DNA of 42,424 bases, taken from contig JAOAAA010000009.1 of the NCBI GenBank assembly GCA_026419115.1, forward strand, positions 1 to 42,424. The letters run 5' to 3'. How positions within the stretch are numbered: position 1 is the stretch's first letter; every line of letters begins with the position of its first letter. A program made the position numbers and the translations under genes. The stretch comes from Gemmataceae bacterium (GTDB lineage Bacteria > Planctomycetota > Planctomycetia > Gemmatales > Gemmataceae). Below are positions 38,090-39,675 of the stretch, one piece after another. The notes under the pieces were generated by a model. The model was not told the origin of the DNA. It saw nothing but the letters and a program-made list of their open reading frames with translations, and searched no databases.

Positions 38090-38143
38090 CAACGAAAAAA
38101 GAAAAGGCCCAATCTTACCTGTGGCGGAAAGATCGGGCCTTTT
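38090..38143 (-). terminator. Rho-independent terminator for the Cys-rich gene
   Basis: Arms at 38102-38116 and 38129-38143 (AAAAGGCCC...ATCTT pairing with AAGAT...GGGCCTTTT, one internal mismatch, 12-nt loop) are followed on the minus strand by a T-rich tail (TTTTCTTTTTT). It lies about 115 bases beyond the Cys-rich gene stop. On the plus strand the T-run is only the stem's own. The rest of spacer 37901-38259 holds only a 12-base repeat (GAACCGAATGAA at 37977-37988 and 38059-38070). Confidence 0.78.
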
Positions 38144-38259
38144 GTTCATCGGTTATAGCTTGGGAAGATTTCCTTGGGGGTTTCATCTCACCTTCGCCTC
38201 ATAGAGGAGGCGGGACATTTTCCCAAGAAGAAATCGGCAAACCCTTTAGCAATACAGAA

Positions 38260-38655
38260 TTACTGTTTGGGTTTTTCTTTCGGAGCTTCTTTGGGAGCTT
38301 CCTTCGGGGTCTTCGGAGTTTCTTTGGGAGCTTCCTTCGGAGCGGGGGTCGCAGGAGTCACCACAACCGGATGGCAAGGGGTCGCGGTTCCACAAGGGGC
38401 CGCATACACCGGAGTGTGGCAGATCGATTTGAAGCAAGAGAACAAGCCGCAGCACCCCCGATGATAGGTCGGGGTAACGCAGGTGCTATGAACCACCACA
38501 GGAGTGGCGCAGGTGGTAGTGCAGCAGCCCCCATGTGTGTAGATTGGGGTAGCACAATTGTGCGTGTAGCAGGGATTTCCACAAGAGAACTTGAAGAAGA
38601 AACCTGTGGGTTCGGGGGCAGCCACCATGCTGGCGGCCATGACGATGCTAAACAT
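38260..38655 (-). CDS. Small Cys-rich secreted protein with C-x-T-P repeats
   Basis: I do not recognise a named family. The 131-residue product starts with a short hydrophobic, signal-like segment (MFSIVMAASMVAAPEP). It then has 13 cysteines in about 70 residues (25, 29, 34, 44, 45, 49, 59, 68, 69, 74, 79, 88, 94), organised around repeats such as CATPIYTH, CATPVVVH, CVTPTYHRG, CHTPVYAAP and CHPVVVTP. Several His residues accompany them. The last 30 residues are a Lys/Pro/Glu-rich low-complexity tail (PKEAPKETPKTPKEAP). Metal binding or disulphide cross-linking in the envelope are both plausible. ATG 38655 is supported by AGGAG at 8 bases. A Fur-box-like palindrome lies 70 bases upstream. Confidence 0.8.
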   Translation of the reverse strand: MFSIVMAASMVAAPEPTGFFFKFSCGNPCYTHNCATPIYTHGGCCTTTCATPVVVHSTCVTPTYHRGCCGLFSCFKSICHTPVYAAPCGTATPCHPVVVTPATPAPKEAPKETPKTPKEAPKEAPKEKPKQ

Positions 38656-38724
38656 GTTGTAGTCTCCTATAAAAAGGGGATTGAAATTAGTGTGGGCAAT
38701 CACCTTTGTGGTGTTATTCCAAAC

Positions 38725-38739
38725 CGAGAATCATTCTCG
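38725..38739. promoter_or_regulatory. Fur-box-like 7-1-7 palindrome
   Basis: CGAGAATCATTCTCG is a perfect 7-1-7 inverted repeat. It agrees with the Fur consensus form TGATAATnATTATCA at 10 of 14 arm positions, the differences being the outer bases and one T-to-G type change in each arm. It lies 70 bases upstream of the Cys-rich gene and next to a possible minus-strand -10 (TTATAC, 38744-38739). It is also about 130 bases upstream of the divergent ImpE-like gene. The palindrome is seen directly; Fur or Zur binding is inference. Confidence 0.5.
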
Positions 38740-38865
38740 TATAAGTACTTAATAGGCAAAAAATTTGACGAGGCAAGGATTATTGTAACATCTTGCCGTA
38801 AAATACCCTGCGTCGAAAAATAGTGTCTTCCGAAACGATCCTGATTTTTACTTGGTAACCTCCCA

Positions 38866-39675
38866 TTGAAACCCTTGGAATTATTTGAGCAAGCTGAACT
38901 GGAAAAGGCAATCGAACTCCAATCCTCCCTCGTGGAGCATCAGCCCCAGAATCCACAGGAGCTTTCCCTTTTGGCAGAGTTTCTTGCTTTTGTCGGGGAA
39001 TGGGATTTGGTCGAGGCCTATCTGCAACGGCTTCCTCCGACCCCAGATTATTGGGCGTGGCTCCAATCGTGGCGAGAAATTCTTTCTGCCGAGAGGATGC
39101 GTCTACAGCCCCAAAACAAACCTCAATTTTGGGTTCCTTCGATCCATCTCGAGGCCCGCTGGAAGGCCATGCACACCGATTCTCAAGAAGAGGTCATGGA
39201 CCTTATTGAACAAGCCGATTCCCATAGCCCCTTTTTAATTGGCTTTGTCGATGGGCGGCCTTTTGAAGGTTGGCGGGAATCGGATGATTTTCTTGCGGAC
39301 GTTCTCGAATTTTTTTATCTGGGTCGTTGCTATTGGATTCCCTTTGCCGAGATTCGCAAACTGCGTCTCGAACCCGCCCAAACGATCCGCGATACTCTCT
39401 TTCGTCCCGTGAATCTGCAGTTGCGTCATCAAGATCAACCCCTACAAGGTTACTTGCCATTGAATTATCTAGGTTCGCATACATCGGAAGACCCCGCCTT
39501 GCAAATCGGTCAAGAAACCGATTGGCTGGAATGCCACGGTTTCGCCAAAGGGGTCGGCACCCGAGTTTGGTTATTGGGAGAAGAAGAAATTTGCGTCAAT
39601 GAGATCAGTCAAATCGAAATCCGGCAAATCGAAGCCCCCGTCGTCGAGGGTGACCATTGGGACGAGGAAATTTGA
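38866..39675 (+). CDS. ImpE/TagJ-family protein (type VI secretion accessory)
   Basis: The 269-residue cytoplasmic protein matches the ImpE/TagJ (SciE) family: an N-terminal TPR-like helical segment (LELFEQAELEKAIELQSSLV, then FLAFVGEWDLVEAYLQRL), a middle block FEGWRESDDFLADVLEFF, the core RCYWIPFAEIRKLRLEPAQT, and YLPLNYLGSHTSEDPALQIG followed by a conserved Trp. TagJ binds the ClpV recycling ATPase or sheath in other bacteria. No other type VI secretion gene is present in the window. The start is TTG 38866, the first possible start in the frame and in the right place for the family; there is no clear SD. The acidic tail (GDHWDEEI) is not part of the core domain. Confidence 0.85.
   Translation: MKPLELFEQAELEKAIELQSSLVEHQPQNPQELSLLAEFLAFVGEWDLVEAYLQRLPPTPDYWAWLQSWREILSAERMRLQPQNKPQFWVPSIHLEARWKAMHTDSQEEVMDLIEQADSHSPFLIGFVDGRPFEGWRESDDFLADVLEFFYLGRCYWIPFAEIRKLRLEPAQTIRDTLFRPVNLQLRHQDQPLQGYLPLNYLGSHTSEDPALQIGQETDWLECHGFAKGVGTRVWLLGEEEICVNEISQIEIRQIEAPVVEGDHWDEEI

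Follow-up and report, generated by a model that had tools for sequence, protein, structure and literature searches.

Within the window, the whole 42,424-nt stretch of DNA analysed here (contig C323 of a fragmented, 92% complete Gemmataceae assembly of 4.26 Mb), a short gene for a Cys-rich protein lies next to a perfect palindrome. An earlier note on this DNA took the palindrome for a Fur box. This raises the question if the gene answers to iron, and if the operator and the protein form a compact, metal-regulated unit in which the protein stores or binds metal, as was proposed there.

A palindrome between divergent genes

The Cys-rich gene is encoded on the minus strand (38260–38655, ATG at 38655, stop codon at 38260). 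Its translation, MFSIVMAASMVAAPEP...KEKPKQ, has 131 amino acids with 13 Cys, and the C-x-T-P repeats that had been described for it are four in number (CATP twice, CVTP and CHTP); the C-terminus is a Pro/Lys/Glu tail. About 10 nt before the ATG, a Shine-Dalgarno-like AGGAG region can be read from the sequence (38663–38670, minus strand). On the 3' side of the gene, a hairpin resembling an intrinsic terminator (38099–38146, minus strand; 21-nt arms, 86% complementary; folding energy -34 kcal/mol, z -6.4) is followed by a T-rich tract, which bears out the proposal that the gene has a terminator of its own.

The palindrome CGAGAATCATTCTCG is located in the divergent intergenic region at 38725–38739, 69 bp upstream of the Cys-rich ATG, and its 7-1-7 symmetry is perfect, as the earlier note had stated. 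On its other side starts an ImpE-family gene of 269 amino acids (38866–39675, plus strand, TTG start; PF07024, E 3e-28), an alternative target of the box. The ImpE family is known from type VI secretion loci; the gene in the window stands alone. Directly adjoining the palindrome we read TATAAG (38740–38745, plus strand), a possible -10 element of the ImpE side, and TATACG is found in the overlapping bases of the minus strand. A consensus sigma-70 scan of the region let no promoter pass. The better of the two possible -10 hexamers, TATAAG, points at ImpE. With one hexamer on each strand, control could extend to one of the divergent genes or to the two together, and the box may equally serve the ImpE gene.

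Since four perfect 7-1-7 palindromes occur in the window, CGAGAATCATTCTCG being one of them, symmetry by itself is weak evidence. Across the host genome, the 13-mer core GAGAATNATTCTC was found three times (0.4–0.84 expected from Markov models of order 1–3) and the exact 15-mer twice, at C188 and in the window (0.04–0.11 expected from Markov models). All three core sites are situated between divergent genes, the one at C5 between two genes for secreted proteins. The 15-mer at C188 (G000:C188:15835, L022) separates divergent genes for an acetolactate synthase-type protein and signal peptidase II. With one mismatch allowed, 26 sites were counted genome-wide against 13–22 expected, many of them inside genes. 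A large regulon (29 sites versus 2 in a reversed control) was dropped, as the Markov background expects 14–23 such sites.

Fur boxes of the relatives and the host fur gene

Among 40 relatives we found 13 exact core sites, two of them directly upstream of fur and two before genes for di-haem cytochrome c peroxidase, which are ordinary targets of Fur-family regulators. The two fur genes are those of G011, a member of the host's family in which the 15-mer is identical to that of the window, and of G049 from another family of the class, which has the exact core; the peroxidase sites belong to G018 and G049. At up to two mismatches, the site is present in the fur promoters of 8 of 40 relatives' genes, with 0.28 expected from shuffles: in addition to the exact sites of G011 and G049, near-matches precede six more fur genes. 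For comparison, a site was seen in none of 26 promoters of ImpE orthologues and in 1 of about 40 promoters of Cys-rich homologues. At the "IEF" position, Fur of the relatives carries a Glu in place of the Asp of PerR, and we take this to favour Fur over PerR. The operator in the window agrees with the Fur box of the group; on these comparisons we identify it, with high probability, as a Fur box of planctomycetes, in support of the earlier reading. A search of the open-access literature yielded no description of a planctomycete Fur box. Genes for the di-haem peroxidase (CCP_MauG) are preceded by the exact sequence GAGAATCATTCTC in two planctomycete families (L059 and L066, site 1501 in each).

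A Pfam search detected no FUR domain in the host, in contrast to 57 of 59 genomes with one. A search with a relative's Fur identified the start of the host gene, VSLPSVPVNLSPVEKFREYLSS, which runs off the end of contig C55 (first 22 codons, G000:C55:4-66, L167). The assumption that the host genome has no fur was therefore rejected: the gene, for which the earlier note had suggested to look, is present, known from these 22 codons with the rest beyond the contig end, and due to this truncation profile searches report it as absent. The host fur promoter, when examined, contained no box.

The host feoA promoter has a related site, TGAGAATGAGTCTCA. In the feoA promoters of most relatives (L136–L165) we observed a strongly conserved palindrome, TGAGAYTNARTCTCA, roughly 30–190 bp before the FeoA match; G013 has it before feoA although no FUR domain was found in this genome. 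The motif is related to, but different from, the Fur box and was left out of the Fur-box counts.

The expectation that the palindrome would be conserved upstream of homologues failed: in the about 40 Cys-rich homologue promoters, which represent distant homologues and none from the host's genus, no convincing box was identified. The promoters of ImpE orthologues without a box come from 19 other genomes, and the Cys-rich gene was not found next to ImpE orthologues in other genomes. Absence of the box before both sets of genes indicates that it is lineage-specific; as far as these sequences tell, the link between box and protein family is not general.

A Cys-rich family with an uncharged N-terminus

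Direct searches with the window protein returned only two relatives. A family profile built from three sequences had hits in 74 of the 95 genomes from the host's taxonomic family, most matches starting at residue 1. The 46 distinct members were picked by their M-Y/F-S/G start, which is followed by a hydrophobic stretch (consensus MYSxVLMAALT) and a Cys-rich middle. None of the 46 has a Lys or Arg in residues 2–14, a property that was not selected for. The N-terminus of the window protein, MFSIVMAASMVAAP (38614–38655, minus strand; family consensus MYSxVLMAALTxAP), conforms to this pattern with its M-Y/F-S start, its hydrophobic residues, a Pro near positions 14–17 and likewise no Lys or Arg in residues 2–14, and its 13 Cys fit the Cys-rich middle of the family; it is the only one of the 46 with an F at position 2. 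Wherever position 3 is a Ser, it is encoded by AGY, which suggests common descent of the members. We further observed that conservation is stronger in the N-termini (L092–L135, L217–L246) than in the remaining sequence.

Most members, but not all, carry one or two C-terminal TIGR03000 domains, and a second family member of the host (a paralogue at C36) has two. This domain was looked for in the window protein and is absent. A few other short members (L109, L125, L129 and L133) likewise have a Pro/Lys/Glu tail as their C-terminus, and for L109 and L129 no TIGR03000 match was obtained. By its sequence, the window protein is a short member of a planctomycete-only Cys-rich family. Searches of Pfam and NCBIfam with the window protein gave no match above threshold. 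A contig search brought up nothing but low-complexity PKEAPKE stretches, from Chitinophaga and a clostridial MAG. Structure prediction from the single sequence gave a pLDDT of 41 and no confident fold.

The "signal-like start" ascribed to the protein is accurate as to its hydrophobic N-terminus, but the basic residue of a signal is missing there: without Lys or Arg before residue 15, the sequence does not show the basic n-region that precedes the hydrophobic core and cleavage site in a classical Sec signal. The main argument for export of the family comes from TIGR03000 proteins of related genomes that have ordinary-looking signal peptides, such as L220 (MKKVVVVVALAALALFMVAQDAEACKRGCC...), a Cys-rich protein from a sister family. 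We consider the window protein to be probably exported, and the family context favours an envelope role. The uncharged MYSxVLMAALT N-terminus is a possible targeting signal that has escaped recognition.

Proposed iron control, competing explanations and known systems

The explanation that we favour, tentatively and as one that is quite possibly correct, is that of a short exported, disulphide-rich envelope protein of a planctomycete family under iron/Fur control in the host lineage. The hydrophobic MYSxVLMAALT N-terminus would serve to export the protein from the cytoplasm, its Cys-rich middle would then form disulphides, and the charged Pro/Lys/Glu tail would stand in for the TIGR03000 domain of most relatives. 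Repression by iron-loaded Fur would act on the Cys-rich gene, on the divergent ImpE gene or on the two together, and would be lifted under iron shortage. Several points count against this explanation: the short uncharged N-terminus, unlike a classical Sec signal; the lack of a convincing box at homologues; the position of the box between divergent genes, with the better -10 towards ImpE; a host fur gene that is mostly beyond the contig end and whose own promoter has no box; and the low pLDDT of the protein.

It is also conceivable, if rather unlikely, that the divergent ImpE-family gene (38866 onwards) is the sole target of the box and that the Cys-rich gene is constitutive. On the plus strand, TATAAG, with five of six matches to a -10 element, directly adjoins the box, which speaks for such an arrangement, whereas the boxless promoters of the ImpE orthologues in the 19 other genomes and the distances involved (69 bp from the box to the Cys-rich start, 126 bp to the ImpE start) argue against it. 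A chance palindrome that has no function at this position seems improbable. The one-mismatch sites, hardly in excess over expectation and often intragenic, and the missing conservation at homologues would be in line with chance; an exact 15-mer is, however, expected only 0.04–0.11 times per genome, the three exact core sites are all in divergent intergenic regions, and the window 15-mer is identical to the fur operator of G011.

Metal binding or storage (iron, zinc or copper) by the Cys/His-rich protein in the periplasm, under metal control, is what the 13 Cys, several His and the Fur box would suggest at first sight. We regard it as very doubtful: no metal-binding family of Pfam or NCBIfam matched, and the metal storage proposed earlier is unsupported; the closest relatives have CxxC repeats of a different make-up, hence no fixed metal site is conserved; and Cys residues tend to be paired if the compartment is oxidising. 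Of the compact metal-regulated unit, the Fur-type operator stands, but the link of box and gene is not general and ImpE is possibly the real target. The earlier note was too quick to join a Fur-type operator and a Cys-rich protein into a metal-handling unit.

To us, the more interesting part of the finding is the MYSxVLMAALT family with its uncharged, strongly conserved N-terminus. Planctomycete envelopes contain many lineage-specific Cys-rich proteins whose role is unknown and whose regulation is little known. New here are a concrete, testable planctomycete Fur-box sequence, found before fur and peroxidase genes, and a widespread Cys-rich family defined by an unusual uncharged N-terminus. A more speculative and, in our estimate, unlikely extension would be a role of MYSxVLMAALT as a signal specific to planctomycetes, by which a whole class of Cys-rich envelope proteins is targeted or assembled; a minimal member of this class would here have come under Fur, linking iron status to a disulphide-rich envelope. 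If MYSxVLMAALT were indeed an export signal, signal-peptide predictors may overlook a whole class of surface proteins.

Among known systems, keratin high-sulphur B2 repeats (PF13885) are short and Cys-rich as in the window protein; its match to this family (15.6 of 27 bits, below the curated cut-off) is compositional and was rejected. Planctomycetes are known to have Cys-rich cell-wall proteins with the YTV domain (PF07639; PMC8567305, PMC10632474), which are restricted to this group and for which an envelope role has been proposed, as for the window protein. The window protein itself gave no PF07639 match, ruling it out as a YTV wall protein; a separate match is present in the host genome at C310. 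The presence of TIGR03000 and YTV, two families confined to planctomycetes, marks the host as a planctomycete. Compared with a classical Sec signal, the N-terminus of the window protein is short and uncharged. The homologues among TIGR03000 (plancto_dom_1) proteins have the same N-terminus and Cys-rich middle, but the window protein has the Pro/Lys/Glu tail instead of the domain. With the 7-1-7 boxes of Fur, Zur and PerR, the window site has the layout and the AATNATT centre in common, its half-site being CGAGAAT as opposed to the E. coli-type TGATAAT; in the relatives, sites of the window type precede fur and di-haem cytochrome c peroxidase genes.
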